NCBI RefSeq assembly: GCF_016469035.1
Contig: NZ_JAEHJZ010000050.1
Location: forward strand, 1 to 50,099
DNA: 50,099 bases
Source: Gelidibacter salicanalis
GTDB lineage: Bacteria; Bacteroidota; Bacteroidia; Flavobacteriales; Flavobacteriaceae
Reading direction: 5' to 3'
Shown here: piece after piece, positions 34,640-50,099 of the stretch
How the letters are laid out: every line of letters begins with the position of its first letter
How positions within the stretch are numbered: the first letter of the stretch is position 1
The notes under the pieces: model-generated
The model's database searches: none
What the model was told of the DNA's origin: nothing
What the model saw: only the letters and a program-made list of their open reading frames with translations
Position numbers and translations under genes: made by a program

Positions 34640-34724
34640 GGAGAAATGGCAGAGCGGTCGAATGCGGCAGTCTTGAAAACTGTTGAGGGTCATACCTCCG
34701 GGGGTTCGAATCCCTCTTTCTCCG
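34640..34724 (+). tRNA. tRNA-Ser (anticodon UGA)
   Basis: An 85-nt class II tRNA. Acceptor arms GGAGAAA (34640-34646) and TTTCTCC (34717-34723) pair perfectly, with discriminator G at 34724. The anticodon loop CTTGAAA reads UGA for serine UCA codons, a long variable arm follows (GTTGAGGGTCATACCTCC), and the T-loop is GGTTCGAATCC. CCA is not encoded. It is the likely integration target of the adjacent island, because a tyrosine recombinase follows 240 bases downstream. Confidence 0.97.
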
Positions 34725-34747
34725 CGAAAAGTCCTACAAAAGGCACC

Positions 34748-36175: not shown

Positions 36176-36856
36176 TTTTTAAATTTCAATCCAGTTTGCT
36201 TTTTCTTTTTAAACTATCGAGATAGCCAAAAAAATAGACTGGCTTGGCTTTTATGAGGTTGGCACTTCATGTCTAGGAAACGTTGGCAACAACTGGTCTA
36301 CCTGGGTGATTTTACCATCCAATTTCCATGATATTTAGTGACGATGGCATATGGTCAGCTTTTGGTTGCAATTTAAAAATTAAAATGATATGTTTATACT
36401 ACCCTAAAATCGTGAGTATTATGATCAATAACAAACCCAAAGGAGTTAAAATAGACCCTAGCAGATTGCAACAGAACACAGTAAAATCAGAACCCCAAAT
36501 AACATCTCCAAAGAAACCGAAGGATAAGAAGTAGAGTGATAATGACCGGTCAATTTGATTCGCGGTACTGATGATAACCGTGAATGCGATCGTACAATTA
36601 CACATACAAAACATTCAGATGATATGATGTCATTAGCAGAAAAGCCATATCATACAGCTTAAGATTATTCACTTTTAACATTCTGATTCTAATGGATTGA
36701 TTTCCTTTATAAGAGAAAAAGAAAAGCAGAATACTATTTTGAACTTTATGGATGAGCTGATAAATCTGGGTCAAACTATCCTAACCCAATTAGAGGAAGC
36801 GAAAAAGCACTAAATTGTCTGTTTTTCCCACTCCCCCCCTGCCTTGGCCTATTATT
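36176..36856. other. Island segment with short open frames, probably gene remnants
   Basis: Three short plus-strand frames occur. 36213-36338 has 41 codons, no ATG and a readable GFYEVGTSCLGNVGNNW segment. 36421-36534 runs from an ATG and encodes 37 residues, ending in a lysine/proline-rich tail. 36679-36813 has no clear start and ends DELINLGQTILTQLEEAKKH. None is recognised. They look more like ends of deleted genes than intact ones. Confidence 0.4.
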
Positions 36857-37140
36857 CAGTTTCCTAACACCATTACGACAAATCCAAGAACAACCTTGGA
36901 AGCAGATCAATCAAAAATACGCTAACCCAGAAAGGCAATAAAAAACCTCTACATTTTTGTAAAAGCCTTCTGTTTTACTCTTTTAAACGCGTGTCGCTTA
37001 TTGAAAGTGGCACAAGCATAGCGCCTTTCGCTAACGTGGCCAAACTACAAGACATAGACTGAGTCAACACGGCATTCATGTTGTGACCCTCGGGCGCAAG
37101 CAGTACCGACCACATGGATGCTTAGTTATGGTACAATGTT
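36857..37140. repeat. R1 intergenic repeat, copy A (attC-like)
   Basis: This copy directly abuts the 3' end of the erythromycin-esterase-like gene. It shares most of its length with copy B at 38528-38866. Shared stretches include a TTTTGTAAAAGCCTTCT terminator arm, GTCAACACGGCATTCAT at about 37063-37079 and the CTTAGTTAT end at 37121-37129. Read on the minus strand it starts ATAACTAAGCAT just past the stop codon, as an attC-type site would. It contains an imperfect, wobble-paired hairpin with a T-run on the minus strand (about 36945-36975). Confidence 0.65.
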
Positions 37141-38445
37141 TTAATTTACCTTAATGTTATTATTGGCTGGAGATATTTCTTTGATAAAAATCAATCCATC
37201 GTATTCGTCTGCATATATTTTTCGCATTTTTATTTTATACAGTGGTTTCGGGCTGAAGCCACCACTGCCAATAGAAAGATTAAAATTACTTGTGCTGAAA
37301 AACTTAGTTTCATCACAATCAATAGCTTTGCTCATGTCAATGAAAAAGATGTCATAATTTGCTTTAAACAGTGTGTGTGAATAGGTTTTTTTGTAGGGTT
37401 TGTCGACTTGATAGAGTCTCCATTTTCCTTGTTGCCTTTTATTATTTTCAAATCCTTTCAGGGTGCCAATGCCAAAATCAAAACCGACACAATAATAATC
37501 GTCACCATAATAGTCTTTCAATTGCTTTCCTAAATTTACAATTCCACTATTGCTCGACCACATTCCTCTTTTGTTGATATGCTCATTATGTGCCCATAAA
37601 AAAGCTTTACCATTCTTAGATTCCTTGTCAATAATCCATTTAGAGTTTTCAAACATTTTGTTATCTCTGACTTCGGATTTTGGATCCTGGACATATTCGG
37701 TGTAATTAATTAAATTACTTATGCTTCGATCAATTGAATTGAAGTCTTTAGAGTTATTGAGATTGTTCGCTATTTGATATCTATTTATTTCATTCTGCAG
37801 TTTAATTAATTTAGGCACCTGCTTATCTGCCCACTCTTTGGTTCCTGCATAATAATCAATTGATTTGTTTGAGCAATCATCTAAAGTTACTAGCAAGTCT
37901 TTGCTGATGGGTATATTATATTTGTCAATTAAATTATGAACTTCAACATTGAAGTTTTTTCCTGATTTTACATCAATTCCATAGAATTTAATTTGCTCTT
38001 CCTTAGAGCGATCCAAGTTGTAAATTCTCATCCATCTTAGTAGGTCATAAATCTCCTCTGAATACCAAAACCCAACTTGAAAAGGTGTTCCCATGGATAA
38101 AATGTCGTTGTCCTGCCCAGTTATCCATTGATTCACGGGAGATTCAGCTTGATATTCCTCTTCCATCATAAAGGTTAAAACTCCTTCATTTTTTACGAGA
38201 TATTTAAAATATTTCGCTTTAATATCAAAGTATTCTTTTCCATCATGGGATAATTCACCAAACCCATATATTCTTGCATTTTTGAATCTTTCGGGAGTAT
38301 TTTTAGAGAAAGCTGTTAACTCACTATTTGGATCTGCATCTTCAATTTCAATAGAGTTATGATTAATCCACTCAATGGTTTTATCAACTTGTGCGTAATT
38401 TTTACACGCAAATAATGTAATTATGCAGAACAGGATTTGTTTCAT
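37141..38445 (-). CDS. Exported erythromycin esterase family protein
   Basis: A 434-residue protein of the erythromycin esterase / succinoglycan-biosynthesis-like (EreA-related) family. It has a signal peptide (about residues 1-18, ending NYAQ), followed by the family pattern: GFGELSHDGKEY (about 60-71), MMEEEYQAESPVNQWI (about 92-107), FYGIDVKSGKNF (about 152-163) and WAHNEHINKRG (about 290-300) with likely active-site His and Glu. Ere enzymes open macrolide lactones. Many Bacteroidota members have no proven resistance role, so the substrate is open. It is an isolated minus-strand gene bounded by repeats, one unit of the cassette-like array. Confidence 0.85.
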   Translation of the reverse strand: MKQILFCIITLFACKNYAQVDKTIEWINHNSIEIEDADPNSELTAFSKNTPERFKNARIYGFGELSHDGKEYFDIKAKYFKYLVKNEGVLTFMMEEEYQAESPVNQWITGQDNDILSMGTPFQVGFWYSEEIYDLLRWMRIYNLDRSKEEQIKFYGIDVKSGKNFNVEVHNLIDKYNIPISKDLLVTLDDCSNKSIDYYAGTKEWADKQVPKLIKLQNEINRYQIANNLNNSKDFNSIDRSISNLINYTEYVQDPKSEVRDNKMFENSKWIIDKESKNGKAFLWAHNEHINKRGMWSSNSGIVNLGKQLKDYYGDDYYCVGFDFGIGTLKGFENNKRQQGKWRLYQVDKPYKKTYSHTLFKANYDIFFIDMSKAIDCDETKFFSTSNFNLSIGSGGFSPKPLYKIKMRKIYADEYDGLIFIKEISPANNNIKVN

Positions 38446-38527
38446 GAATTTTTAAATATTGTCAACAATTGAATAGATAAAATTATCTATATCCACTCTA
38501 CAACTAACATAGTGATTTTTAATTTTC
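38446..38527. other. 5' boundary of the esterase unit
   Basis: The plus strand carries CACTCTACAACTAACAT at about 38495-38511, which on the minus strand is a GTTGTAG-type motif about 55 bases before the esterase ATG. Similar motifs sit upstream of the other units. Confidence 0.4.
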
Positions 38528-38866
38528 ATGTATTGCCTATTGCCAGTTTTCTCTCTCCCTGCTCTGACTCATGTTTCAGTTTTCTGGCAGGTTCTACAAA
38601 AAATCCAAGAACAGCAGGTAGTAATTCTCTTAAAATAAGCTAACCCCATAAAAGGCAACTAAAAAAGCCTTTCCATTTTTTGTAAAAGCCTTCTCCTTTA
38701 TTTTTTTAAACACGGGGGTATTAATTGAGAGTGGTACAAGCATAACCCCTTGCGTTAATGAAGCCAACCTACAAACACCGGTCAGCCAACACGGCATTCA
38801 TCTTGCCCCCGAGGGTCGTCGGGACAACCAGTAACGGTCACACAAATGGTTAGTTATTGTAGCCAG
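38528..38866. repeat. R1 intergenic repeat, copy B (attC-like)
   Basis: A second long copy of R1, overlapping the last codons of the GNAT gene. The core at 38776-38860 contains ACCGGTCAGCCAACACGG and GCATTCATCTTG and ends GGTTAGTTATTGTAG. On the minus strand the gene stop TAA is part of the ATAACTAACC motif. A minus-strand terminator-like hairpin with T-run lies near 38660-38690, at the same place as in copy A. Confidence 0.65.
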
Positions 38867-39291
38867 TTTTTTTTCATTCTGATATGATTTCCCTTTTCCG
38901 AAATTTTTTCAAATCCGAGATTTTTATAAAATTTTTGAGCTTTAATATTTATTTTAAAAACTTGTAATCGAATCAGCTTTTTTTCAGAACTAGCTCTTTC
39001 AATAATTTTTTCCATAACGGCCTTTCCAATCCCTAAATTCTGAAATTCCTTTTCTATTAGTAAATTCTCTATATAGATGTCGTCGTGTGTTTCTTTCAGA
39101 ACTAAATATCCAACTTCTTTTCCGTTTCGTTCAATTATTTTCGTGTCCGAAGCAGTAAAGTTCGTTTCATGCGTTTTCTTTTGAAACTGTTCGTTCCAAC
39201 TCCATATTTTTTCCACATACGGTTTAATCGAGTTGCTTTTAATTCGATACGTTATTTCTAAATCTGTGTTTTTCGCGTCTCTTAAATTCAA
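38854..39291 (-). CDS. GNAT family N-acetyltransferase
   Basis: A 145-residue acetyl-CoA-dependent acetyltransferase. Motif A for coenzyme A binding is EFQNLGIGKAVMEKII (about 87-102), preceded by the IYIENLLIEKEF strand and followed by the QVFKINIKAQKFYKNLGFEKI C-terminal part. The substrate cannot be predicted; small GNATs of this kind acetylate antibiotics, polyamines or proteins. It is an isolated minus-strand gene with repeats on both sides, and its stop codon overlaps the R1 repeat. Confidence 0.88.
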   Translation of the reverse strand: MNLRDAKNTDLEITYRIKSNSIKPYVEKIWSWNEQFQKKTHETNFTASDTKIIERNGKEVGYLVLKETHDDIYIENLLIEKEFQNLGIGKAVMEKIIERASSEKKLIRLQVFKINIKAQKFYKNLGFEKISEKGNHIRMKKNWLQ

Positions 39292-39320
39292 TTGTATATT
39301 CGGTTTTTCTCAAATTGACA

Positions 39321-39443
39321 GCATGTGTTTATACAACCAGGAGTCTTGTATATGTCCCTATCTACCCAATACTATCTCTGTTTGTCCTTCTCAAATGTAC
39401 CCGATTCCTGTAAAGCATCCAAGGTCCATTTCTTATAGTTCAT
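39321..39443. repeat. R3 intergenic repeat, copy 1
   Basis: About 120 bases upstream of the GNAT gene, shared with 43921-44008 and 49981-50099. The constant core includes CTCAAATGTACCCGATTC. On the minus strand an open frame reads WTLDALQESGTFEKDKQ before a stop, matching the frame in copy 3. Confidence 0.7.
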
Positions 39444-39540
39444 ATCTCAAATGTATAAATTTGAAATCTAAAATACCACTCCCAACTTATTGGGGCCTAA
39501 ACTAGCCCTACCCAAATCCATTCCTCGAAAAGCGGATACC

Positions 39541-39655
39541 CATAGACGGCAAATCAACCGGATGCGTCAACACAATAGTCAGCTCTGGCCTACCCCGCTA
39601 AGGCGGGACAGGTGCGGCGAGCCCAATACTTCTTAGTTACTGTACACTGGCTTTT
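39541..39655. repeat. R1-like intergenic repeat, divergent copy D
   Basis: This copy abuts the 3' end of the MFS gene. It keeps the outline of R1: CAACCGGATGCGTCAACACAA in place of the CCGGTCAGCCAACACGG core, then a CCCGC / GCGGG hairpin, and the end TTCTTAGTTACTGTACAC. Homology is weaker than among A, B and C. Confidence 0.45.
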
Positions 39656-39673
39656 TCTTTCCGATTAATAAAT

Positions 39674-40855
39674 TTATTCATTTTTCAGAGTCTTAGGTTT
39701 AGGAATTGTCAAGATATATACAATGACAATTATTGTAGCAATTGCAGTTATTAAAAAAGTCAATGTTGCACCGAACTGAAACCAAATAAGTCCTGCCAAT
39801 GAACTTGCAAGCATTGTGCAGATGCTTTGAAATCCTGAAAATGTTCCAATAGCTGTTGCAGTATCTTTTTTGTCTGTGATATTTGAAATCCACGCTTTTG
39901 AAATTCCTTCTGTGGCAGAGGCATAAATACCATACAAGAAAAACAGACCAAAAAACAGATAAAGATTTGTGTTTACTGACATACCAAAATAGACAATTGA
40001 AAATAATAAAAGCCCAATAATTAATATCTTTTTAAGTCCAACTTTGTCCGCAAGTATTCCTATTGGAAAAGCAAATAGAGCATAAATAAGATTGTAGAAA
40101 ATATAAACACCAATAACCATTGTGTCAGCAAGTCCTGCTTGTTTTGCTTTTAAAAGTAAAAACACGTCAGAACTATTAAATAATGTAAAAGCAAGAAGAC
40201 CAACGACTAATTTTTTGTATTCTGTTTGACTTTCTTTCCAATAATTGATAAACGAAAAGAAGGGTGTAGCAACTTTTTGATTAACTATATTTTTCCTTTT
40301 ATCCTTTAGTAAGAACGAAGCCAAAACTGCAAGAAGACCTGGTATAAAGGCAATAAAAAAAAGTGTTTTGTAATTCTGTGGGAAGTAATACAAATAAATC
40401 AATGCCAATGAAGGTCCAATTACTGCACCTAAAGTGTCCATTGAACGATGAAATCCAAAAACTTTACCTTTATTTTCTGCGGTTGCTTCACCTGATAGGA
40501 TGGCATCTCTTGCTCCTGTTCTAATTCCTTTTCCGAAACGGTCAATTGTCCGAGCAAAGAAAATCCAAAGCGGATAAATAAAAATCGCCATCATTGGTTT
40601 TGAAATAGCACTAAAAGCATATCCAATTTGAACAAAAGGAACTCTTTTGCCCGAATTGTCTGAAAGTTTACCAAAATAACCTTTGCTTAAACCTGCTGTC
40701 GCTTCTGCAACTCCTTCAAGTATTCCAATTAGCACAATGGAAAAGCCAATTGACTTTAAATAAATCGGCATAATCGGATACAACATTTCGCTGGCTGTAT
40801 CTGTGAACAAACTTACCAAGGATAAAATCCAAACTGACTTTGTTATATATTTCAA
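39674..40855 (-). CDS. MFS transporter
   Basis: A 393-residue inner-membrane transporter with about 12 hydrophobic segments. The typical first-half loop motif appears as GKLSDNSGKR (about 61-70) and the second-half equivalent as GILADKVGLKK (about 265-275). A DRFGKGIRTGARDAIL segment (about 105-120) is characteristic of a Bacteroidota subfamily annotated as drug efflux-type MFS. Substrate is unknown. It is a single minus-strand gene flanked by R1-like and R2 repeats and by TGTACAC / GTGTACA inverted ends (39641-39647 and 40891-40897). Confidence 0.9.
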   Translation of the reverse strand: MKYITKSVWILSLVSLFTDTASEMLYPIMPIYLKSIGFSIVLIGILEGVAEATAGLSKGYFGKLSDNSGKRVPFVQIGYAFSAISKPMMAIFIYPLWIFFARTIDRFGKGIRTGARDAILSGEATAENKGKVFGFHRSMDTLGAVIGPSLALIYLYYFPQNYKTLFFIAFIPGLLAVLASFLLKDKRKNIVNQKVATPFFSFINYWKESQTEYKKLVVGLLAFTLFNSSDVFLLLKAKQAGLADTMVIGVYIFYNLIYALFAFPIGILADKVGLKKILIIGLLLFSIVYFGMSVNTNLYLFFGLFFLYGIYASATEGISKAWISNITDKKDTATAIGTFSGFQSICTMLASSLAGLIWFQFGATLTFLITAIATIIVIVYILTIPKPKTLKNE

Positions 40856-40890
40856 TTTATAAGTTTGAATATGTGTTCATTTTTCAGCTT

Positions 40891-41028
40891 GTGTACAACA
40901 TGTGGGTATCTTCACCGGTGCATAAACCTATACTATATAATCCCCAAAATACCAACTTTCCCCCATATTTCCTATATTAGAACTACGTATTTACAACCAA
41001 AATACACTAGTCTAATTCATGTTCCAGT
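40891..41028. repeat. R2 intergenic repeat, copy 1
   Basis: About 135 bases upstream of the MFS gene, shared with 42271-42403 and 43055-43165. It holds the dyad GGTAT-N3-CACCGGTG-N3-ATACC (here 40905-40928, one arm imperfect), then CTATATAATCC, AAAATACCA and TTTCCCCC blocks, and ends in ATTCATGTTCCAGT as copy 2 does. Confidence 0.75.
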
Positions 41029-41109
41029 CAAGGTGGCACAAATCGAACCGTTATAGTTTTTTTTTCTGCACAGGCAAAGTGGCACAAATCGAACAGAAGT
41101 AACCTTTGA

Positions 41110-41376
41110 GAGTCGGGAAGCAGCGTACGCGGTCGTGGCAGGATCGGTAAGGTCGGCAATAAGAAACTTCGCAACCTGTTGTTCCTTTGCGCTTTCAATG
41201 TCTGTAAGTACAACAAAGCGTGCCGCGAGGTATACGAGCGAATTGTAATCAAGGGTAAGAGTAAAAAATTGACCCTTATTGCAGTAGCAAATAAATTATT
41301 GAAGCAGTGTTTCGCCATCGCGAAATCGAGTTTACCGCACGATGATGGCCATGTGTCAGTGCTAAAAAATAATTAA
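41110..41376 (+). pseudogene. C-terminal fragment of an IS110-family transposase
   Basis: The frame reads RESGSSVRGRGRIGKVGNKK, then a CAFNVCKYNKACREVYERI stretch and KLLKQCFAIAKS, ending at 41376. This is the C-terminal (Tnp_20-type) end of an IS110/IS116/IS902 transposase. The N-terminal ~250 residues are missing; a TGA precedes the first codon. Two direct copies of GTGGCACAAATCGAAC lie just before it (about 41035 and 41082). Confidence 0.8.
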
Positions 41377-41707
41377 TCAGAGTTATCAGCTTTGGTGATG
41401 ATTATTGCTTGTTGGATTGGATACAAACCACGAAGGAGCTTTATTCCACTTCAACAATGCTAGATAATGCATTTCTCAAAAATGAACAACCTCGACCCAA
41501 GGGTACGAGGTATCAAGTAGAAGTTCCTTTTTTATTTCGACGCAGAGCGTCGGGGAATAAAACCCAAGGATCCCGCTAAAAAGCGGGATTAGTTCAACTA
41601 ACAATTTTTAATTCATTGCTTCGCAACTTTTAAAAATTGAGTTTCACTAATTTAATGGAAGAAAGGCTTGTTTTTTGCCTCAGTTCTTTGTTGGGCTTTC
41701 GTACTTT
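41377..41707. other. Non-coding stretch between IS110 fragment and toxin gene, with two palindromes
   Basis: Two tight hairpins stand out: CGACGC-AGA-GCGTCG at 41538-41552 and ATCCCGCT-AAAA-AGCGGGAT at 41570-41589. They resemble dispersed REP-like palindromes. No gene was seen. Confidence 0.5.
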
Positions 41708-42013
41708 TTATTCTATATCTTTTTTAAGCTTGTCAGGATGTTGTCTTGTGTCGAAAATTGTTATTATTTCAATTTCTTTTTTATCCAAATTAACTCTGTA
41801 GTAAAATGTTGTTTGTTTAGTTACGACACACTTATAAAGATTATCAAATTCCGATGATGTAGGACAAGTATTGGGTTGTAGAGATATTTGCTTAATTTTT
41901 TCAGTCAGTTTTGAAATAAATCTATCTCTTGTTTTTAAATTCCAATTTTCTAATAAATATTCCGAAAGCTTCAGGAGTTTTGATTCGGCAAGCTTAGATA
42001 AGAATACTTTCAA
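41708..42013 (-). CDS. Type II toxin of the RelE/ParE family
   Basis: A 101-residue toxin. The ParE/RelE fold pattern is clear: the KLAESKLLKLSEYLLENW helix pair, PNTCPTSSEFDNLYKCVV, and a C-terminal strand YRVNLDKKEIEIITIFDTRQHPDK. The RQHP-type end is typical of ParE (gyrase-targeting) relatives, though an mRNA-cleaving RelE activity is not excluded. It lies 3 bases after its antitoxin gene in the same direction. It is a repeat-bounded unit of the array and may stabilise it by addiction. Confidence 0.9.
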   Translation of the reverse strand: MKVFLSKLAESKLLKLSEYLLENWNLKTRDRFISKLTEKIKQISLQPNTCPTSSEFDNLYKCVVTKQTTFYYRVNLDKKEIEIITIFDTRQHPDKLKKDIE

Positions 42014-42016
42014 TTT

Positions 42017-42235
42017 CTACGAAATTTTCTTTAAAAAAGAATCATAAGAAATTCTTTTTCCATTATCCAAATCCTCAATTCCTTTTTTTATTTCTTTTTG
42101 TTCAGACAGACTTAATTCATTCCAAAAGTCATTTTTTTCTTTTTTTACGAAATCTGATACACGTTGAATAAATTCGGAATTTTCATTATCCAAAATAGCC
42201 TTGAGTAATTCCAGTTTTGTGGTTTGAATGTCCAT
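42017..42235 (-). CDS. Antitoxin of the addiction-module component family
   Basis: A 72-residue, charged, helical protein placed directly before the RelE/ParE-like toxin, as antitoxins of this family are. It ends in GIEDLDNGKRISYDSFLKKI, a typical antitoxin C-terminal toxin-binding segment. The ATG at 42233-42235 is chosen because the longer frame from 42295 runs backwards into the R2 repeat (the MHRCRY codons are repeat sequence). Confidence 0.85.
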   Translation of the reverse strand: MDIQTTKLELLKAILDNENSEFIQRVSDFVKKEKNDFWNELSLSEQKEIKKGIEDLDNGKRISYDSFLKKIS

Positions 42236-42270
42236 TTTAAAAGTCTTATTAATATTCAAATTTACGAAAA

Positions 42271-42403
42271 ATATCGCATATCTACACCGGTGCATATACC
42301 TACACTATATAATCCCCAAAATACCACCTTTCCCCCAACTTTTCTATAAGTAGAACGACATATTTATTATCAAAACACACACTAGCATAATTCATGGTCC
42401 AGT
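42271..42403. repeat. R2 intergenic repeat, copy 2
   Basis: Same element as at 40891-41028, upstream of the toxin-antitoxin unit. The CACCGGTG palindrome is at 42285-42292, and the left dyad arm is decayed. Its end, ATTCATGGTCCAGT, matches copy 1. Confidence 0.75.
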
Positions 42404-42543
42404 TTCCTGAACCAAACTAAGAGCAACCCCTTTCAAACACTCCAAACCAACAAAAGGCAACAAAAAAGCCCTGATAAGGGCTAAACAAGTTCGTTTTTTT
42501 ATGAATTTATGGGGTTGTACAACGGCTACCTGTGTTGTAGCAA
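42404..42543. repeat. Terminal repeat segment at the 3' end of the PrcB-like unit
   Basis: It shares CAGTTTCCT and AAAGGCAAYAAAAAA blocks with R1 copies A and B. It contains a minus-strand terminator, the palindrome GTTGTACAAC (42514-42523) and the 11-base end TGTTGTAGCAA (42533-42543) that is inverted at 43055-43065. Confidence 0.6.
42462..42482 (-). terminator. Rho-independent terminator of the PrcB-like gene
   Basis: On the minus strand AGCCCT-TATC-AGGGCT is followed by six T. It lies 66 bases past the gene's stop. Confidence 0.85.
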
Positions 42544-42547
42544 GTTT

Positions 42548-43000
42548 TTATTCAAATATTATTGGTAAATCAGAATTCTGAATTTTCACAATATGGAAAG
42601 GTTGCGTAATAACAGTTGTGGCATTCCCTTCAGGAGCTAAATCTGTAACATTTACAATTATGTTTTCAGAATTCGACATTATATTTAATTCCAAGTTATG
42701 TCCTCCGTTTCCTTTTATCTCGTCAAATACTGCAATAATTGTATGTTCAGAAAAATCTATATCAGTTTCTGTAAAGTTGTCAGAAACATTATTTACTGAA
42801 TTCATTTGAGTTATTAAATCATTCCAAGTAGTTTGGTTAGAAATAATTAAATTCTGTTCCGTAATTCCTTCCACTCCATTACCATACAGATTGTCTTTTG
42901 CAATTAAAGTAGATACAACATTTGTCATTTCTGAATTGCTATCATCGGAGCTACAACTCAAAACTAAAATTGATAACAAGATGATTAATACATTTTTCAT
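42548..43000 (-). CDS. Lipoprotein with PrcB C-terminal-like domain
   Basis: A 150-residue lipoprotein. The signal peptide ends in a VLSC lipobox (Cys16), followed by an SSDDSNS linker typical of flavobacterial exported lipoproteins. The C-terminal ~85 residues fit the PrcB family: the HTIIAVFDEIKGNGGHNLEL strand-loop and the QPFHIVKIQNSDLPIIFE end. PrcB assists the dentilisin protease complex in Treponema, but here no protease gene is near, so the function is open. The unit is bounded by a perfect 11-bp inverted repeat (42533-42543 and 43055-43065). Confidence 0.8.
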   Translation of the reverse strand: MKNVLIILLSILVLSCSSDDSNSEMTNVVSTLIAKDNLYGNGVEGITEQNLIISNQTTWNDLITQMNSVNNVSDNFTETDIDFSEHTIIAVFDEIKGNGGHNLELNIMSNSENIIVNVTDLAPEGNATTVITQPFHIVKIQNSDLPIIFE

Positions 43001-43054
43001 AATCTATTATATTTTTTTATTAGATGTAATAATTTACGAAAGGTTGCGTCAAAT

Positions 43055-43165
43055 TTGCTACAACATGTGGGTATCTACACCGGTGCAAATACCTACACTA
43101 TATAATCCCTAAAATACCACCTTTCCCCCAACTTTCCTATAAGTAGAACTGCGTATTTACAACCC
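43055..43165. repeat. R2 intergenic repeat, copy 3
   Basis: The cleanest copy: TTGCTACAACA at 43055-43065, then the complete dyad GGTAT-N3-CACCGGTG-N3-ATACC at 43070-43093, then the conserved tail through GTAGAACTGCGTATTTACAA. It lies upstream of the PrcB-like lipoprotein gene. Confidence 0.8.
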
Positions 43166-43194
43166 GCTAACTAACAACATCTTGGAGCGTTTTC

Positions 43195-43332
43195 TCACAA
43201 TCCATGACAAAACGATATAAAGCCTAACGCTTTAGCCAGCCAGACTAACCTCCTAACACCGGTTCAGTCAACACGGCATTTATGTTGGGTCGTACTGACC
43301 ACACGAATGCTTGTTAGATATTGGCAACTGGC
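43195..43332. repeat. R1 intergenic repeat, copy C (attC-like)
   Basis: It abuts the stop of the next gene. Outer arms CTAAC (near 43247 and again near 43255) and GTTAG (43314-43318) and inner arms GGTTCAGT (43261-43268) and ACTGACC (about 43293-43299) are inverted. They enclose CAACACGGCATTTATGTTGG. This four-box layout is what an attC site shows. The minus strand reads ATCTAAC at the gene side, fitting the RYYYAAC core. Confidence 0.65.
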
Positions 43333-43336
43333 TTTT

Positions 43337-43894
43337 CTATAGTATGTCTTTATCTTTTCCGTCAATATTATGTTTTATTTTTTGGCCCATACCGTTTGTT
43401 ACATATCCGGCAACAGTTTCTGTTTTTGTCATTCCATTTTCCAAATATTCCAACGTTATTGAACAATCGCCAGTTATTCCCACCCAAACAGTTTGACTCT
43501 CTTTAGGTTTCAATTCCGAAATATATTTTGTTTCACAACCAACGATTTTTATATCCGTCAAATTGCTGCCTGTGGCGTTTGTAAAAGTGATTCTCATATT
43601 CCCAATTACAATCAATGATATCCAAATGAAAGTTAACATTATCGGTAGATTAATGAGCATTAAGCCTCCTGTCTTTAAAAGCTTTTTGCGATTGGTCGAG
43701 TCAGAATTTGATTTAGCTATAATTGCTATTAGAATTATCAAATTTGTAATTCCAGCGAGTACAATAAATCCGTATCCAATAAATAATGAATCACTGTTAG
43801 AAGTCAGGAAATAACCCCCGAAAATAATTGCTCCAATTATGAACGAAATTAATGCAGTTACTTTTCCTAAAGTGATGTAATTTTCGGATTTCAT
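43337..43894 (-). CDS. Hypothetical membrane protein
   Basis: A 185-residue protein with four hydrophobic helices in the first ~115 residues (FIIGAIIFGGYFL, FIVLAGITNLIILIAII, LMLINLPIMLTFIWISLIVIG), then a periplasmic or cytosolic beta-rich domain with ITFTNATGSNLTDIKI and LKPKESQTVWVGI stretches. I do not recognise a function. The ATG at 43892-43894 is preferred, since the 18 extra codons of the longer frame lie in the R3-side boundary sequence. It is an isolated unit bounded by R1 copy C and R3 copy 2, with GTTGCC / GGCAAC at its ends. Confidence 0.75.
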   Translation of the reverse strand: MKSENYITLGKVTALISFIIGAIIFGGYFLTSNSDSLFIGYGFIVLAGITNLIILIAIIAKSNSDSTNRKKLLKTGGLMLINLPIMLTFIWISLIVIGNMRITFTNATGSNLTDIKIVGCETKYISELKPKESQTVWVGITGDCSITLEYLENGMTKTETVAGYVTNGMGQKIKHNIDGKDKDIL

Positions 43895-43920
43895 TTTATT
43901 CTTAGTTGGTTGCCCACATT

Positions 43921-44008
43921 CATATACACAACATAGAGTGCCATACATATCCCCTATCTACCCCATGCCATTTCTGTTTGTCGTACTCAAATGTACCCGA
44001 TTCCTATA
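43921..44008. repeat. R3 intergenic repeat, copy 2
   Basis: Shares CCCCATGCCATTTCTGTTTG and CTCAAATGTACCCGATTC with copy 3. On the minus strand the frame reads ESGTFEYDKQKWHGVD. The distal end is replaced by a GATTCC-TTATA-GGAATC palindrome. Confidence 0.7.
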
Positions 44009-44345
44009 AGGAATCCTACAACACGAGTATATATTTCTGTCGTTTTTGTACTGGAATGGCCATGGAGCTGTGGGTTGAGGGAGGTAGATAATCATATATG
44101 TTTTAGCCTTCCGTTCCATAATAGACTTATAGAGATGTATTCAAATTTAAAGAGACTCTCTTAGCCATTGTTGGTGCTTTCCGCCAACGATTTTTGCACA
44201 ACCTTACAATACCTCACAAATAGCCAGTGCTGATGTTTTGAACTAATAATGCCTGAAAACAAAACATAAAGCACTTGAAATAAAAAGACAATAGCATATC
44301 ATTTTTAGCATGGACTAATTCTAAAGTAATTGAATGTTCAAAATT
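44009..44345. other. Non-coding stretch between R3 copy 2 and the dnaE-like gene
   Basis: A/T-rich sequence with no gene that I can support and no clear terminator. It may be the remaining 3' region of the dnaE-like operon. Confidence 0.4.
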
Positions 44346-47303
44346 TTAAGTATTTCTAGGATCAGGAAGTATGGATGATTTAGTACTCCATATAACATTC
44401 ATACTGTAAAAATCAAATCGATCTGTTATTTTTCCATAGCAGGCATAGACTCCCAATCCGTTAATTGGATATTTATCGACAACATCGGTAAAGTGTACCG
44501 CATCAAAATAGTCGCCCTTTACATCTATAAAAGTGCTCAATCTCATGAGTTTCCCCTGAGACGTTTTATTAAATCGCGTTGTCACCAAGCTGCCATAAAT
44601 TAAGACCTCTCTACCTATGAAATCTTTCATTTGACTGGCTAAAATGCCATTTTCTATAGCGCCATTAACCAATCTAAAGTAATTGCATAAAGGAAAGCCC
44701 AAGAGCTCCATTTCATCATAGGCGTCTTCTACCCAATTGCTTTCCATCTTGGGCAATTTAAATTCCCTATGCTGAATTTTAAACAATTTGGACTGTTGAC
44801 TTTTGGTACCGTCAGCATTTAACTTAAAAATGGCTTGCCACAACAATTCCGATTTTGACCGGTTGGTAAAGCGAAACGCATTAATCCTTATTAAGATGGT
44901 CACCTGTTCAATGCTAATAGTTACCCTGTCTATAAAGTCGTCCAAGGAGTTGTAATGACCATTCAATTGCCGTTCTGATAGGATTCTTTGCACAGTATAG
45001 GTCTCTAGATTTTTCAGATAACCAAAACCTAGATAAATGGATTTCCCCATCAATCTGTTGGGATGGTCGCTTCTGTTAATACAAGGCGGGCAAATTGTAG
45101 CACCTTGTTTCTGTGCTTCATGAAGATAATGCTCGACACTATAAAACCCACCGCCATTATTAAGAACGGCAGTCATAAACTCCAATGGATAGTAACATTT
45201 TAAAAACAAACTCTGATAACTCTCCACCGCATAAGAAGCCGAATGGCCTTTCGCGAAAGCGTAGCCAGCAAAACTCTTGATCTGATTCCAGACCTCAAAG
45301 ATCAATACATCACTAAAGCCTTTTTTTCTACAATTTGAGATGAATTTTTCTTCTACAGCGATAAATTCCTGTCTCGATCTGAACTTGCCGCTCATGCCAC
45401 GCCTCAAAATATCAGCTTCTCCAAGCGATAAATCTGCAAACTGATTGGCAACTTTTAAGACATCCTCTTGATATACCATGACTCCATAGGTTTCAGGCAT
45501 AATCTGCATGAGAATTGGGTGTCCGTTCCTACGATTTTCAGGATACCGGTGTCGCTTGATAAACTCCTCTTTCATCCCTGATCCCGATACGCCAGGTCTA
45601 ATAATAGAACTTGCAGCCACTAGACCAATATAATCCTGTGTCTGTAATTGCTGCATCAATCCCCGCATTGCGGGCGATTCCACATAGTAGGCTCCAATGG
45701 CACCTCCAGATTTTAAAAGGTCATTTATATTTTTATCCTTTTTAAAAGCTTCAACATTGTTGATGTCAATTGCTGGCACCTCTGGTCTATTTTCCTTAAT
45801 GATCTCCAAAGCTTCCTTAATTTTGGCCAAGCCCCGCTGGCCCAAAATATCAAATTTAAATACACCAACATCTTCCGCTATGATCATATCAAATTGAACT
45901 GTTGGAAACCCTTTTGGCGGTAAGTCCGTGGCTGAGTAATAATGAATCGGCTTGTCCAAAATGAGTATGCCAGCAGAATGCACGCTCAAATGATTGGGGA
46001 ATCCTTCAATCAATTTTCCATATCGGAGAACAAGCTGTGAGATATCGTCCAATTGGGGAACCGAATAATTGCCCGTGCTCAGTTTGTCTATTTCTTCCTT
46101 TGGCAATCCAAAAACCTTTCCCAATTCCCTTACCACAGCTCTATACTTAAAAGTACTGTAGGTGGCCAATAGAGCCGTATGTGGGAATCTTCTAAAGATA
46201 TAATCCGTCACATCATCTCTATCTTTCCATGAGAAATCAATATCAAAATCGGGAGGCGAAGCTCTAAACGGGTTGATAAAACGTTCAAAATATAAATCCA
46301 ATTCAATGGGGTCAACATCTGTAATACCAATAATATAAGCTACAATGCTATTCGCCCCACTCCCACGGCCCACATGAAAATAGCCTTTACTTTTGGCATA
46401 AGAGACAATGTCGTAATTAATAAGAAAGAAGGATACAAAATCCAGTGATTTAATGGTATCCAATTCAGTTTTCAATCTGGCCAAAACTTTCTCGTTAGGG
46501 TCTGCATAGCGTTTGTATAAATTATCTTTGCATAAAGATTCTAAGAGCTTATAATCTTTTTCAACAGAATCTGTGTACAGCTTTAGGTTTTGCGATTTAC
46601 GATCCTCGCCATAGTTGAATTCTATATGGCAGCTATTTAAGATTGTATTGGTGTTCTCAATAATATTTGGAAAATCCTCAAAAGCTTCATGGATCTCCAG
46701 GGTAGAAAACATGCTATCGGTAAGCTTACATTCCTCAGATTTTTCAAGCTTGCTCAACAAGATGTTTTTATCAATGGCCCTCAATAATCTATGGGCGTTG
46801 AAATCCTTTTTGCTTCTTATGGTTACCGTCTGTAGGACCACTAATTTGTTTTTAAGGTTTTTCAATTTGGAAAACCTTAATTTTCTCAGCTCTTCAATGG
46901 GGATCCCGATAAATTCGTTTTCGGCAAAATTCTCTTTTTCTAATTGCAATGCCCGCTCAAATGAATAGATAACGTAGCAATTATCAAAAATCGGCGCAAG
47001 TTCTGGCAATTCAATCTTTTTTTCCGAATGATGGGATAAAAATCCATTGAGCTCTTTAAACCCTTCGTTGTTTTTGGCAATACCTACATAGACTTGCTTA
47101 GGGCCATTTCTAAAGTCAATGCCTACAATAGGCTTTATATTGAAATCTTTGGCTTTCCTAATAAAATTCAGGCATGCCGATGTATTGTTAATGTCCGTCA
47201 GTGCCAATGTAGGGACATTATTTTTTTTAGCAAGCTCCAACAGTTCAATCTCAGAAAACGTGCCGTAACGCAAGGAATAATAGGTATGACAGTTAAGGTA
47301 CAT
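44346..47303 (-). CDS. Accessory DNA polymerase III alpha subunit (DnaE-type, SOS operon)
   Basis: A 985-residue C-family polymerase, shorter than the replicative DnaE. The PHP domain is N-terminal (HTYYSLRYGTFSE, about 6-18, and LALTDINN). The palm contains GRGSGANSIVAYIIG (about 317-331) and the catalytic aspartates in PPDFDIDF (about 357-364). MVYQEDVLKVANQF follows, then helix-hairpin-helix and C-terminal OB-like parts (REVLIYGSLV). It overlaps the dinB stop by one base (TAATG), so the two are translationally coupled. Together they probably perform damage-induced mutagenic lesion bypass, as dnaE2 does with Y-family partners. The main replicative dnaE must lie elsewhere. Confidence 0.9.
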   Translation of the reverse strand: MYLNCHTYYSLRYGTFSEIELLELAKKNNVPTLALTDINNTSACLNFIRKAKDFNIKPIVGIDFRNGPKQVYVGIAKNNEGFKELNGFLSHHSEKKIELPELAPIFDNCYVIYSFERALQLEKENFAENEFIGIPIEELRKLRFSKLKNLKNKLVVLQTVTIRSKKDFNAHRLLRAIDKNILLSKLEKSEECKLTDSMFSTLEIHEAFEDFPNIIENTNTILNSCHIEFNYGEDRKSQNLKLYTDSVEKDYKLLESLCKDNLYKRYADPNEKVLARLKTELDTIKSLDFVSFFLINYDIVSYAKSKGYFHVGRGSGANSIVAYIIGITDVDPIELDLYFERFINPFRASPPDFDIDFSWKDRDDVTDYIFRRFPHTALLATYSTFKYRAVVRELGKVFGLPKEEIDKLSTGNYSVPQLDDISQLVLRYGKLIEGFPNHLSVHSAGILILDKPIHYYSATDLPPKGFPTVQFDMIIAEDVGVFKFDILGQRGLAKIKEALEIIKENRPEVPAIDINNVEAFKKDKNINDLLKSGGAIGAYYVESPAMRGLMQQLQTQDYIGLVAASSIIRPGVSGSGMKEEFIKRHRYPENRRNGHPILMQIMPETYGVMVYQEDVLKVANQFADLSLGEADILRRGMSGKFRSRQEFIAVEEKFISNCRKKGFSDVLIFEVWNQIKSFAGYAFAKGHSASYAVESYQSLFLKCYYPLEFMTAVLNNGGGFYSVEHYLHEAQKQGATICPPCINRSDHPNRLMGKSIYLGFGYLKNLETYTVQRILSERQLNGHYNSLDDFIDRVTISIEQVTILIRINAFRFTNRSKSELLWQAIFKLNADGTKSQQSKLFKIQHREFKLPKMESNWVEDAYDEMELLGFPLCNYFRLVNGAIENGILASQMKDFIGREVLIYGSLVTTRFNKTSQGKLMRLSTFIDVKGDYFDAVHFTDVVDKYPINGLGVYACYGKITDRFDFYSMNVIWSTKSSILPDPRNT

Positions 47304-48517
47304 TACTGATTTCTATGGGCTAATAAAGTTGGTGGTTCCCCATTGAATGGGTTTTCAAATCTTCCAATGGTCTTTGCCCCCATGGAAGAGGCACGCATAA
47401 TACTTGATTCACCGTAGCGCCCCCTAATATGATCCATGGCGGTGTAAAGACTGAGCATTTCTTCTGTATCATCAAATAAATTTATTTGATAATGACCACT
47501 TACAATATCGCTGATCCTCACTCCTACCAAACGTACCAACAGACGCCGCTGAAACAAGAGATCGAAGAGCTCCATAACTTTTGGGATAATCACGTGGTCT
47601 GCACTGGAATATGGAATTTTAATCTGTTTACTGTAAGTATTAAAATCAGAATACCGGATTTTCACACTGATAACACCGGCTATCCTGTTTCCCCTTCTTA
47701 ACTGGAATGCCAAATTTTCAGCCATCGCAAAAATGGTGGTTCTCAACTTCAGTATATCAATCGTGTCCTTGGTAAAAGTGCGCTCCGTCGATAAGGATTT
47801 GCGTTCATGAAAAGGTACCAGGGGCGGGTTGTCAACACCATTGGCCCTTTTCCATATGGTGCCCCCATTGGCGCCTAAAGCGCTTATCATCATCTCTATG
47901 GGCATTTGTTGAACTATCTTGACTTTGTCAACACCCAGATTCCGTAAAACCTGATATGTTTTCTCTCCCACAGATGGTATTTTTCGGATGGATAAAGGCG
48001 CTAAAAATGATTTTTCGAAGCCTGCATCTATCTTTAATTGGTTGTTTGGTTTTGCTTCACCTGTGGCCACTTTTGAAACAATTTTATTTACGGACAGACC
48101 AAAGGAAATTGGCAGTCCGCTGTTCTTTATAACGCTCTGCCTAAGTTCAGAAGCATATTTATAACACCCATGGAACTTATCCATACCGGTCAGATCTGCA
48201 TAGAACTCGTCCACACTCGCTTTTTCAAATACAGGTACTTTGTCCTTTATGATTTCAGTTACCAAATGAGAATATTTTGTATAAATAGAAGCATCTCCGC
48301 GAATGACAATGGCTTCCGGACACAAATTTCTTGCAACCTTCATGGACATCCCAGAATGCACACCATAGGGGCGGGTTTCATAACTACATGCCGCCACAAC
48401 GCCTCTTAATCCTGTACCTCCCACCAAGAGGGGCCTATGTTGAAGTCGGCTATCGATTAATCTTTCACACGATACAAAGAAGGTATCCAAATCGAGATGC
48501 AATATATTTTTTTCCAT
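47303..48517 (-). CDS. dinB: Y-family DNA polymerase (DinB/Pol IV-like)
   Basis: A 404-residue translesion polymerase. Catalytic acids are present: Asp9 in LDLDTFF and Asp103-Glu104 in SVDEFYADL. Other motifs are SYETRPYGVHSGM (about 45-57), SFGLSVNKIVSKVA and the helix-hairpin-helix IPSVGEKTYQVLRNLG. The little-finger domain ends near residue 350. Since the active site is intact, it is not a catalytically dead ImuB. It is the first gene of the operon with the accessory dnaE, and the promoter region shows a possible SOS-type operator. Confidence 0.9.
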   Translation of the reverse strand: MEKNILHLDLDTFFVSCERLIDSRLQHRPLLVGGTGLRGVVAACSYETRPYGVHSGMSMKVARNLCPEAIVIRGDASIYTKYSHLVTEIIKDKVPVFEKASVDEFYADLTGMDKFHGCYKYASELRQSVIKNSGLPISFGLSVNKIVSKVATGEAKPNNQLKIDAGFEKSFLAPLSIRKIPSVGEKTYQVLRNLGVDKVKIVQQMPIEMMISALGANGGTIWKRANGVDNPPLVPFHERKSLSTERTFTKDTIDILKLRTTIFAMAENLAFQLRRGNRIAGVISVKIRYSDFNTYSKQIKIPYSSADHVIIPKVMELFDLLFQRRLLVRLVGVRISDIVSGHYQINLFDDTEEMLSLYTAMDHIRGRYGESSIMRASSMGAKTIGRFENPFNGEPPTLLAHRNQ

Positions 48518-48519
48518 AG

Positions 48520-48556
48520 TGCAAAATTACTCATATATGTAGCGAATCATTGCTAC
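48520..48556 (-). promoter_or_regulatory. Promoter and possible damage-response operator of dinB-dnaE
   Basis: On the minus strand TAATTTTG fits TAnnTTTG and ends only about 4 bases before the ATG, so the mRNA would be almost leaderless. Upstream lies the dyad GTAGC-N8-GCTAC (48539-48556), close to the place of the missing -33 box. It may bind a LexA-like repressor, but no such gene is in the window. Confidence 0.45.
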
Positions 48557-48654
48557 TGTTTGTAGCTTGTGAATAACTTATAATTACATATGGCCAGAGT
48601 AATAACTTAACAAAACGTTCCAATGACCGCACCCAATTGATGTACAAGGCTCCA

Positions 48655-49174
48655 GGCATGACAGAAGAGCACTGTCGATAACACGAAAAAGATTGCAAAA
48701 CGTTAATAGAAGATTGGGAACGCAGTAATCCCAATTAGGGTATAGACCATCAGGCATTACTGACCCACATAGAGACCATACCTGGAATAGGGGAGCAAGA
48801 CCTCACTTATGCCCATCGTTCTGACCGATGGGTTTGAACGCTTTGATTCGGCAGGCCAATTATCCAGCTATTCAGGATTGACACCCATGATCCGAGAAAG
48901 CGGAAGCAGTGTAAAGGGACGACCCAGGATCAGTAAGATTGGAAACCAAAACGCAGAAATCCATTATTCATGTGCAGTTTTAGAGCTTGCAAACACAACA
49001 AAGCCTGCAAGGCAATTTATGACAGAATAGTAGCTAAAGGGAAAAGTAGAAAGCTAGCTCTAATAGCAGTCTGTAACAAGCACCTGAAACAGGCACCTGA
49101 AACAGGCATTTGCGGTAGCGAAATCGGGTTTGATCTATGATAAAAACCACAGAAGTACTTTAATTGAAAATTAG
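48655..49174 (+). pseudogene. Decayed IS110-family transposase
   Basis: The C-terminal half of an IS110/IS116/IS902 transposase can be followed across frames. EKDCKTLIEDWERSNPN and HIETIPGIG are followed by a frameshift, LTDGFERFDSAGQLSSYSG, RESGSSVKGRPRISKIGN, another shift, ACKHNKACKAIYDRIVAKG, KLALIAVCNK and finally AFAVAKSGLIYDKN, ending at the TAG at 49172. In-frame stops and at least three frameshifts are present. One shift is a 13-bp tandem duplication (49080-49092 and 49093-49105). It differs from the fragment at 41110 and is thus a separate insertion. Confidence 0.8.
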
Positions 49175-49199
49175 TGCTTTCTTGGTTGTTTTTAGCACA

Positions 49200-49222
49200 G
49201 TTCTTAGTTATTGTAGTGCATT
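49200..49222. repeat. 3' boundary motif of the 49224 unit
   Basis: TTCTTAGTTATTGTAGTGCA at 49201-49220 repeats the gene-end signature of R1 (CTTAGTTAT) and contains TTGTAGTG, which is inverted as CACTACAA at 49648-49655 on the other side of the gene. Confidence 0.6.
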
Positions 49223-49223
49223 T

Positions 49224-49601
49224 TTATCTTTTTGTCAAAACATAGGTGTCTCCTATCGAATTTATCATAATTAATCTATTCATTTCAAATACATAATTCC
49301 AATTTCCATTCAGTACAAGATTTGGGTCAAATTCAGTTGTGATAATGGTTTGTTTATTATCAAAACTCAGAGTATGTTTTTGTACAGAAAAATCCCCAAA
49401 ATATATGGCAGGAAAATTAGTTCTATCGCTTTCACCAGAAAAATCTCCATTGTCAAAATTAAGTTCAACACTAGAAATCATTTCATTTCTCTCAAAAGTT
49501 CCAATATATTGTCCGTCAATATTTGGTTCCTGATAATCATCATAATCACAAGCAAAAGTTGTAATTAAAAGTCCGACTAATGTTATAAATTTCGTTCTCA
49601 T
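49224..49601 (-). CDS. Hypothetical lipoprotein
   Basis: A 125-residue lipoprotein with a lipobox ending in TTFAC (Cys18) and an acidic linker (DYDDYQEPNIDG). It then has a beta-rich lipocalin-like domain: GQYIGTFERNE, a WNYVFEMNRLIMIN strand and an IGDTYVLTKR end. It would sit in the outer membrane or on the surface. The function is unknown. It is bounded by TTGTAGTG-type inverted ends, so I take it as another unit of the array. Confidence 0.7.
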   Translation of the reverse strand: MRTKFITLVGLLITTFACDYDDYQEPNIDGQYIGTFERNEMISSVELNFDNGDFSGESDRTNFPAIYFGDFSVQKHTLSFDNKQTIITTEFDPNLVLNGNWNYVFEMNRLIMINSIGDTYVLTKR

Positions 49602-49674
49602 AATTCTATTTAATTGATAAAATTTTTCTCGTAAGGTTTTTTTAATCCACTACAACGTGTTTTGTTGCGCGTTT
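49602..49674. other. Short spacer between two small array genes
   Basis: It carries CCACTACAACGTGTTTTG near 49647-49664 and GCGCGTTTTTAATC at the next gene's end. It lacks R1, R2 or R3, so the two flanking genes may belong to one unit or to a minimal junction. Confidence 0.4.
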
Positions 49675-49863
49675 TTAATCTGTTAAATATTTTTTGGTGA
49701 AAAGAGTAATTATCAAGTAAAAAATTCCAGCGAAAAGTATAGTAAAATTAATTTCTTGTGGTCGATTTGGATCTCCTGTACTAATATGAATAATTTCGGT
49801 AGCTACTCCTCCTAGAAATAAACTTACAATAATCCTAAACCAAGCTCTATTAAGTATTTTCAT
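49675..49863 (-). CDS. Small hypothetical membrane protein
   Basis: A 62-residue protein with two hydrophobic helices (FRIIVSLFLGGVATEIIHI and NFTILFAGIFYLIITLF) joined by a polar loop, GDPNRPQEI. No function can be assigned. The ATG start fits the helix boundary. Upstream at 49969-49985 is GCACTACAACATGTGTA, the 5' boundary motif seen at other units, and R3 copy 3 follows. Confidence 0.65.
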   Translation of the reverse strand: MKILNRAWFRIIVSLFLGGVATEIIHISTGDPNRPQEINFTILFAGIFYLIITLFTKKYLTD

Positions 49864-49980
49864 TAATCTATTTTTACTACTAATTTTTAAAATTTATTTT
49901 GGCTCAGGCTTTCTATCTATTCCAATAGATAAATATTAGTCAGATTATTTTCTTTATTGAATTTTCCTAAATGCACTACA

Positions 49981-50099
49981 ACATGTGTATATATAACATA
50001 TGACACGAGGAGTTACGTATATATCACTTATGCACCCCATGCCATTTCTGTTTGCCGTTCTCAAATGTACCCGATTCATATAAAGCATCCAAGGTCCAT
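49981..50099. repeat. R3 intergenic repeat, copy 3 (runs off the window)
   Basis: It shares CTCAAATGTACCCGATTC and AAAGCATCCAAGGTCCAT with copy 1, and CACCCCATGCCATTTCTG with copy 2. The minus strand reads WTLDALYESGTFENGKQKW followed by HGVHK and a stop. It shows that the array continues past the right edge. Confidence 0.75.

Follow-up and report, generated by a model that had tools for sequence, protein, structure and literature searches.

Results

Gene units and repeats at the locus

We examined a 50,099-nucleotide (nt) stretch of DNA from Gelidibacter salicanalis (the window), in which a train of genes bounded by repeats resembles the gene-cassette array of an integron. The window is an entire contig (C435 of genome G000; NZ_JAEHJZ010000050.1) of a 682-contig, 5.16-Mb assembly, so the assembly holds nothing past position 50,099. 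Single genes and gene pairs, unrelated to each other and all on the minus strand, run from 36.8 kb to the contig end with repeats at their ends. An earlier note made from the letters alone had described these units, and its description held for the genes of an erythromycin esterase, a GNAT acetyltransferase, an MFS transporter, a ParE toxin pair, proteins of 150 and 203 amino acids (aa), and a pair of 62 and 125 aa.

The features are given here from high to low coordinates, in the direction of transcription, and lie on the minus strand unless stated. A copy of repeat R3 at the contig end (50010-50090) is upstream of the two-gene cassette (49210-49981; genes of 62 and 125 aa at 49224-49863), and a remnant of an IS110-family transposase (48809-49030, plus strand) stands beside the 3' end of that cassette. 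A DNA polymerase III alpha-like gene paired with a Y-family polymerase gene (44346-48517) then splits the array. It is followed by a decayed cassette integrase gene (44014-44153) and an attI-like site, itself an R3 (43930-44016). The 203-aa gene, which has no Pfam family, is the first unit after this site (43337-43948), with repeat R1 type a behind it (43170-43340). Next come an R2 repeat ending in the core ..ACATGTT (43040-43165), the 150-aa gene (42548-43000), an R2 broken off ahead of its core (42256-42366), the ParE-family toxin and its probable partner antitoxin (41708-42295), and a further R2 with the terminal core ..ACATGTT (40884-40998). The MFS transporter gene (39674-40855) has R1d behind it (39501-39673), of a family shared with the ends of IS91-family elements in this genome. 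The last units are the GNAT gene (38854-39291), preceded by an R3 with the TTG-N20-TAnnTTTG motif described below (39340-39420) and followed by R1 type b (38620-38860), and the erythromycin esterase family gene (PF05139; 37141-38445), behind which repeat comparison placed R1 type c (36914-37132). These six units (203 aa, 150 aa, ParE, MFS, GNAT and esterase) point away from the attI-like site and the integrase remnant. Cassettes likewise share one direction on the repeat-bearing contigs of the G. salicanalis genome and in the array of a relative, G048.

Beyond the array, on the plus strand, lie a tyrosine integrase gene with Arm-DNA-bind_5 and SAM_5 domains (34964-36175) and, adjoining it, a tRNA-Ser (tga) gene (34640-34725), an insertion hotspot. 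We considered this integrase as the cassette enzyme and ruled it out by its weak match to the integron integrase IntI and its linkage to the tRNA-Ser gene. As the earlier note had supposed, it is of another kind, and it goes with the tRNA-Ser site.

Complementary boxes of the cassettes

Integron cassettes begin with bases that are complementary to the R'' box of the attC carried by the same cassette. Among the 41 units of the G. salicanalis genome with a mapped 3' end, 24 had at least 6 complementary bases directly after an upstream GTT; when the 3' boxes were dealt to other units, the mean was 0.9% and the maximum 7.7% (300 trials). The boxes vary between cassettes and agree within one cassette. 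This test supersedes an early pairing of boxes by R3 position (7/14 at 6 or more, against a shuffled mean of 0.9), which was too crude.

Within the window the boxes were read without a control. The complementary boxes span 13 nt in the 62/125-aa unit (ending at 49981 and 49210), 11 nt in the 150-aa unit (~43065 and ~42532) and 7 nt in the MFS unit (~40897 and ~39640). Boxes complementary after GTT and before AAC, a hallmark of integrons, were found, with two clear cases among the seven units of the window. The same reading found no convincing cassette boxes at the polymerase pair.

In the G048 array, 42 of 104 forward genes had a complementary run of at least 6, compared with 91 of 10506 control pairs. 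In loci from G048, G018, G042 and G040, read at a run of at least 5, the rule was seen for 15/30 genes at locus L145, 9/22 at L164, 9/18 at L147 and 7/17 at L154, with controls of 1.9-6.6%; further loci gave 3/6, 0/8 (L150) and 1/9 (L151).

The cassette integrase and its attI site

The best IntI-like place in the G. salicanalis genome is an intact gene for a 397-aa tyrosine recombinase on contig C662, the sole match in this genome at E ≤ 1e-60. Its last codons and the following ~60 bases form an R3 copy, and attI overlaps the 3' end of the gene. The first gene behind the integrase and attI runs in the integrase direction. Orthologues with a similar attI tail occur in Gelidibacter maritimus, G. 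gilvus, G. japonicus, an uncultured Gelidibacter, Aequorivita lipolytica and A. vitellina; the closest relatives of the enzyme, from named Gelidibacter genomes, are 94-95% identical, and all genomes with matches at this level belong to that genus.

In each of these seven genomes, G. salicanalis included, the attI tail stops at GTT and a different gene follows. Mean pairwise identity over the 30 nt to the left and right of GTT was 93% and 43% among the four closest genomes and 69% and 36% over all seven, with the A. lipolytica row off register (an earlier CATGTT was picked). No two of the seven first-cassette proteins were alike at E ≤ 1e-3. A conserved attI left of GTT with unrelated first genes is as predicted for different cassettes inserting at one attI. 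The sequences thus place an attI beside the integrase at the point where cassettes would enter, with the breakpoint at GTT. As a side observation, the first cassette at the intact attI of G. salicanalis (L052:5731-8475) matches a model of the Ppl anti-phage system.

The earlier note had expected a dedicated recombinase past position 50,099 or acting in trans. A remnant turned up inside the window instead, and the live copy stands on C662. Compared with that copy, the remnant retains 44066-44153 (~88 bases of the gene start region, 81% identical) and 44014-44061 (48 bases near the gene end, 83% identical), the middle being missing; it sits between the polymerase pair and the 203-aa gene and continues into the attI-like site. 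A second case of a remnant integrase followed by attI and cassettes was found in G048 (L177).

Most flavobacterial cassette integrases have an N-terminal part of ~110 aa, which the 305-aa enzyme of genome G042 lacks. Pfam offered no usable name for this part, and a likeness to HARP domains was backed by no result. At 27 of 39 integrase loci, a small divergent gene (~120 aa, CxxC..CxxxC, zinc-ribbon-like) lies at most 1 kb upstream (22 found by script, with a profile made from 15 sequences of the same loci, and 5 by eye, overlapping or 0.7-1 kb off). The 39 loci exclude those that cover a place already counted (L145-L147, L151, L152, L154, L164) as well as L082 and L177, which have no integrase match. 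The gene was found at none of 11 IntI loci, most with 1.5 kb upstream readable; 20 of the 106 genomes with IntI matches had yielded loci. In G. salicanalis it is at L052:4015-4401 (minus strand). It matched no Pfam family over cut-off, with weak treble-clef matches below the cut-offs. It may take part in the system. A Saprospiraceae genome also has a 589-aa recombinase of this kind (L077:14323-16089), with a divergent zinc-ribbon gene alongside.

Repeat families and copies of attI

Searches of the whole G. salicanalis genome gave 31 matches to R3, 4 to R2, 4 to the R1 of 36750-37140 (one of just 22 bases) and at least 40 to the R1 subfamily of 39520-39640 (40 were scored among 74 candidates, and all 40 matched). 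These numbers exceed chance, and the alternation of R3, gene and R1 in one direction recurs on many contigs (e.g., L053, L054, L056-L061, L066). The repeats and the order R3, gene, R1 are as the earlier note had them, but its scheme of three families needed revision, as R1 comprises several families and R3, judged by alignment, duplicates the attI linked to the integrase. The placement of R1 at gene 3' ends held behind the esterase, GNAT, MFS and 203-aa genes, but the repeat search of the window found no R1 match behind the toxin-antitoxin pair.

When the 31 R3 copies were aligned, the conserved part stopped at ..ATATATACACATGTT and gene-specific sequence followed. Both R2 and R3 terminate in an integron-type core (..ACATGTT). 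The R3 copies contain the integrase tail, a TTG-N20-TAnnTTTG motif and the core. The motif, which we take to be a promoter consensus, was present in 7 of 7 attI sites and 24 of 31 R3 copies (22 at the homologous place), as against 0.8% in a mononucleotide-shuffle control, the copies being related to each other. It would presumably work as a promoter.

Structure of the attC sites

In the arrays of G048, G018, G042 and G040, attC sites are ~126 nt long. We picked 40 attCs by hand from 177 candidates of a looser scan, with L-box pairing partly a selection criterion, and aligned 26 of them. The covariation score of these 26 attCs of relatives was 0.401, compared with 0.119 after shuffling (0/500) and at most 0.073 for slid versions. 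Within the named helices, 57 cells had a two-sided change, compared with 15.8 in shuffled alignments (0/500).

With the four outer columns left out, the top-strand mismatches in the L-box and inner helices were A.C in 32 cases (26 in one column) and G.T in one. The A.C mismatches of the top strand become wobble pairs when the bottom strand is read, which is the integron pattern, and hint that attC folds from the bottom strand. The outermost column has six T.G pairs on the top strand, but its sides belong to neighbouring cassettes. In DNA folding, which was run on bottom strands only, the L boxes were paired in the minimum-energy fold for five of six sites, with z-scores of -1.7 to -4.8. The pairing and covariation in the attCs of relatives are those of the imperfect hairpin of integron attCs; that the bottom strand is the one that folds is suggested.

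Cassette duplicates and comparison of the tRNA-Ser site

Two cassettes occur as exact duplicates (100% identity), one of 849 bp in G042 and one of 607 bp in G048, each present twice with one copy at attI. In both, the identity begins at GTT and stops 1-2 bases past the GTT behind the attC. A cassette of the G. salicanalis genome (L055) is 90% alike over 567 bp to a cassette of G018, a genome of another genus; the likeness starts in the tail of the attC ahead of GTT and extends as far as R''.

The earlier note had named vertical conservation of these genes among relatives as an observation that would speak against a cassette system. Such conservation was not seen. The window cassettes were absent from the tRNA-Ser site in all five genus genomes readable for 4.9-18 kb (G002, ~18 kb past the integrase; G001, G005 and G007, 13-15 kb past the tRNA; G009, L158, 4.9 kb); the reach in G003, G004, G006 and G008 was ~1 kb only. 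In G002, other genes follow the same tRNA integrase (81%), and the tRNA-Ser site of G. gilvus contains a cassette integrase of its own.

It is highly improbable that the units are vertically inherited accessory genes, without mobility, among which intergenic repeats have been amplified. The abundance of the repeats, some of them IS91-derived, is what such a history would leave. Against it stand the finding that one attI type is followed by a different first cassette in each of seven genomes, the absence of the window cassettes from the tRNA-Ser site of five relatives, the exact cassette duplicates and the gene-by-gene complementarity of the boxes.

An IS91-family element in the attC sites

R1d stands at the start of four IS91-family elements in the G. 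salicanalis genome (left ends at L052:9055-11499, L054, L055 and L063). Seven right ends of such elements (also L053, L064 and L048) read ..GGATTCGTTC followed directly by AACA, one having TTTG instead of TTCG. At four of them (L052, L053, L054 and L055) a match to the attC model begins at or near the element end. At L052 and L055, where the boxes of the cassette itself are readable to the left, the element is inserted exactly at the junction of the cassette-specific R'' bases with AAC. From these insertion points, the element appears to be an IS91 that targets attC. The R1 with at least 40 copies is the end of this IS91-family element sitting in attC, and is thus not attC proper. It follows that R1d copies without a transposase are remnants of the element. 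Ten attCs with R1d and without a transposase measure 234-439 bases, and one uninvaded attC measures 123. The element also carries an accessory tyrosine recombinase of 275/306 aa. These multi-copy recombinases were tried as the cassette enzyme and ruled out, the copies read adjoining the IS91-family transposase.

Since there are several copies of the IS91-family element to whose end R1d corresponds, one could suppose that this element, moving by ISCR-like rolling circle, had carried the single-gene units itself and that no integron recombinase was involved. We regard this as very unlikely. The arrays of G048, G018, G042 and G040 obey the core-box rule with attCs of other sequence, the exact duplicates break at GTT, and the boxes differ among cassettes while matching within each.

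Relation of the recombinase to IntI

The G. salicanalis recombinase scored 188 bits against the integrase_gron profile, for which the cut-off is 265. An alignment showed that the 6 IntI rows have ~31 residues at the position of the IntI-specific domain that the flavobacterial rows lack; in the alignment to the PDB chain of IntI4, the chain jumps from 185 to 247 while the query runs from 293 to 312. A tree of 60 rows, from which 3 rows (one an IntI) were omitted, placed 19 IntI in one group (100/100) and 14 flavobacterial enzymes in another (95/83). The deep joins are unsure because the program warned of long branches meeting. The enzyme therefore lacks the additional domain by which an integron integrase is recognised. 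The integrase is also transcribed in the same direction as the cassettes in the array-head loci read, not away from them as is the rule for intI.

IntI over cut-off was found neither in the G. salicanalis genome nor in six relatives with arrays or the integrase (four of them single-contig). Of 395 Bacteroidota genomes sampled, 105 had it, and all but one of these lie outside the class of the window; none of 106 genomes with IntI matches belongs to this family, whose share of the sample is not fully listed. These counts bear on the idea that the window is an ordinary CALIN, a cluster of attC sites lacking an integrase (PMC9024848, as given in the available text), with cassettes of a classical integron and IntI acting in trans or lost. 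The window does have attC-like boxes and no intact cassette integrase, as a CALIN would, and true IntI exists elsewhere in Bacteroidota. We nevertheless consider this improbable, given the absence of IntI from this genome and the six relatives and from the family among the matching genomes, and given arrays that begin directly behind a non-IntI recombinase in several genomes. The window array also differs from a CALIN in being headed by a dead non-IntI integrase, with a live copy elsewhere in the genome.

XerA/XerC-type tyrosine recombinases (NF040815, TIGR02224/5) align with the flavobacterial enzyme over the catalytic and core-binding domains, without the IntI insert. The flavobacterial enzyme differs from them in falling below the cut-offs of those models, in its N-terminal extension and in its linkage to cassette arrays.

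Arrays in related genomes

Matches to the integrase at E ≤ 1e-60 were found in 35 of 99 genomes, G. salicanalis counted. Trains of genes lie directly 3' of recombinases of 305-376 aa in G048, G018, G042 and G040. In G048, a single contig, 80 attCs, all on the plus strand, occupy 3130158-3198591 (68 kb) directly behind a 376-aa integrase; open reading frames of at least 70 aa in the first 70 kb comprise 102 forward and 4 reverse. In a survey that scored at most 35 candidates per genome, the attC model matched 57 of 60 genomes of the family and 12 of 39 other genomes of the order, among them all five with an integrase hit. Genome G022 has two array ends, with a 390-aa relative of the integrase at one and none seen within 16 kb at the other.

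Related enzymes were also seen on plasmids. Two Chryseobacterium plasmids (L185 and L186) carry a related integrase; the genes that follow it run mostly in one direction, interspersed with genes of IS110, IS91 or group II introns. There were four attC-model matches on L185 and none on L186, and the core-box rule was nearly absent from these plasmids (2 of 9 gene units at a run of 5). On the Acinetobacter indicus plasmid p80-1-2-tetX3 (L184), a partial tyrosine recombinase beside tet(X3) has 58% identity over 213 aa to a flavobacterial cassette integrase; no cassette boundary and no attC were found around tet(X3).

Other features of the window

The stretch 41105-41480 is 89% identical to sequence at the G. 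maritimus and G. japonicus array loci and is perhaps an IS110-like remnant. Rfam at the gathering threshold gave nothing beyond the tRNA in the window, L145 and L059, and PADLOC matched none of eight window proteins submitted.

Discussion

We conclude, with a probability of about 90%, that the window holds a decayed side array of an integron-type cassette system of Flavobacteriaceae with a dedicated XerA-like recombinase. The core-box rule, the attI junctions, the exact duplicates and the attC covariation fit what the earlier note had proposed, an integron-like or new cassette system of Flavobacteriia. These results, together with the missing IntI insert and the dead integrase of the window, are demonstrated at the level of sequence.

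We propose that a XerA-like tyrosine recombinase, encoded in the cassette direction, would insert cassettes at attI through a GTT core. This attI overlaps the 3' end of the recombinase gene, and the attCs of the cassettes would fold as hairpins (R''-L''...L'-R'), probably from the bottom strand, which may be the substrate of the enzyme. In Gelidibacter, the IS91-family element with R1d as its end has invaded many attCs at R'', and attI copies with the promoter motif (R3) are present in many. How R3 spread is conjectural; the IS91-family element may have carried the attI copies. We infer that cassette recombination is performed by the non-IntI recombinase.

Several observations weigh against this proposal. 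Recombination itself was not observed, and the support for it is indirect, through the exact duplicates. The box pair is absent from 17 of the 41 G. salicanalis cassettes; in the uncontrolled reading of the window, the ParE, 203-aa, GNAT and esterase units had no convincing pair, and two of seven loci in relatives were negative or nearly so (L150 and L151). No match to the attC model was found in the window at E ≤ 1, and 44 of 500 shuffles reached the 8 pairs that showed a two-sided change. Seven of the 34 genomes of the order outside the family that have no integrase hit also gave attC-model matches. The zinc-ribbon-like gene was not within 1 kb at 12 of 39 integrase loci. Finally, the attCs differ in the cassette shared by L055 and G018, which is unexpected for a classical cassette.

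The system shares with integrons, including Vibrio-type superintegrons, an attI, attCs with the R''/L''/L'/R' hairpin, a GTT core, complementary boxes particular to each cassette, a single direction and an array of 80 attCs, as well as the presence of insertion sequences and of a group II intron between cassettes. It differs in lacking the IntI insert, in scoring below the integrase_gron cut-off and in grouping apart from IntI. Further differences are the ~110-aa N-terminal part of most of the enzymes, the divergent zinc-ribbon-like gene and the overlap of attI with the integrase 3' end. Since the arrays are integron-like on the sequence tests and the integrase fails the test of membership, we regard the system as a variant of the integron kind. 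An integrase transcribed toward attI, in the cassette direction, is also a property of the chromosomal integrons of Treponema, as described in the available text of PMC3607928; the integrase there is an IntI, whereas the enzyme here has no IntI insert. In the literature on integrons in Bacteroidota and Flavobacteria that was covered, from which most subscription journals and bioRxiv were absent, no title or abstract opening described this system.

More tentatively, and at somewhat less than even odds, the arrays may constitute a second integron class that is widespread among Flavobacteriaceae and possibly of independent origin. Its XerA-like recombinase, which has an N-terminal part of its own and a zinc-ribbon partner, would act on single-stranded attC hairpins while having no IntI-specific domain. 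In Gelidibacter, copies of attI and its promoter would have been spread through the array by an IS91-family element that seeks out attC, so that new attCs and cassette promoters were made from attI.

Integron recombination is described as requiring the IntI-specific domain, and IntegronFinder recognises the integrase by two profiles, one of them for that domain (both in the available text of PMC9668308). In the text available for IntegronFinder 2.0, an earlier study had just In0 elements in Bacteroidetes, and Salinibacter ruber is named as a Bacteroidetes species with a complete integron (PMC9024848). Integrons that lack the IntI domain would help to explain the seeming rarity of integrons in the phylum. 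A large natural set of integrons without this domain would make the need for it testable, and it opens the question of where attCs and cassette promoters come from.

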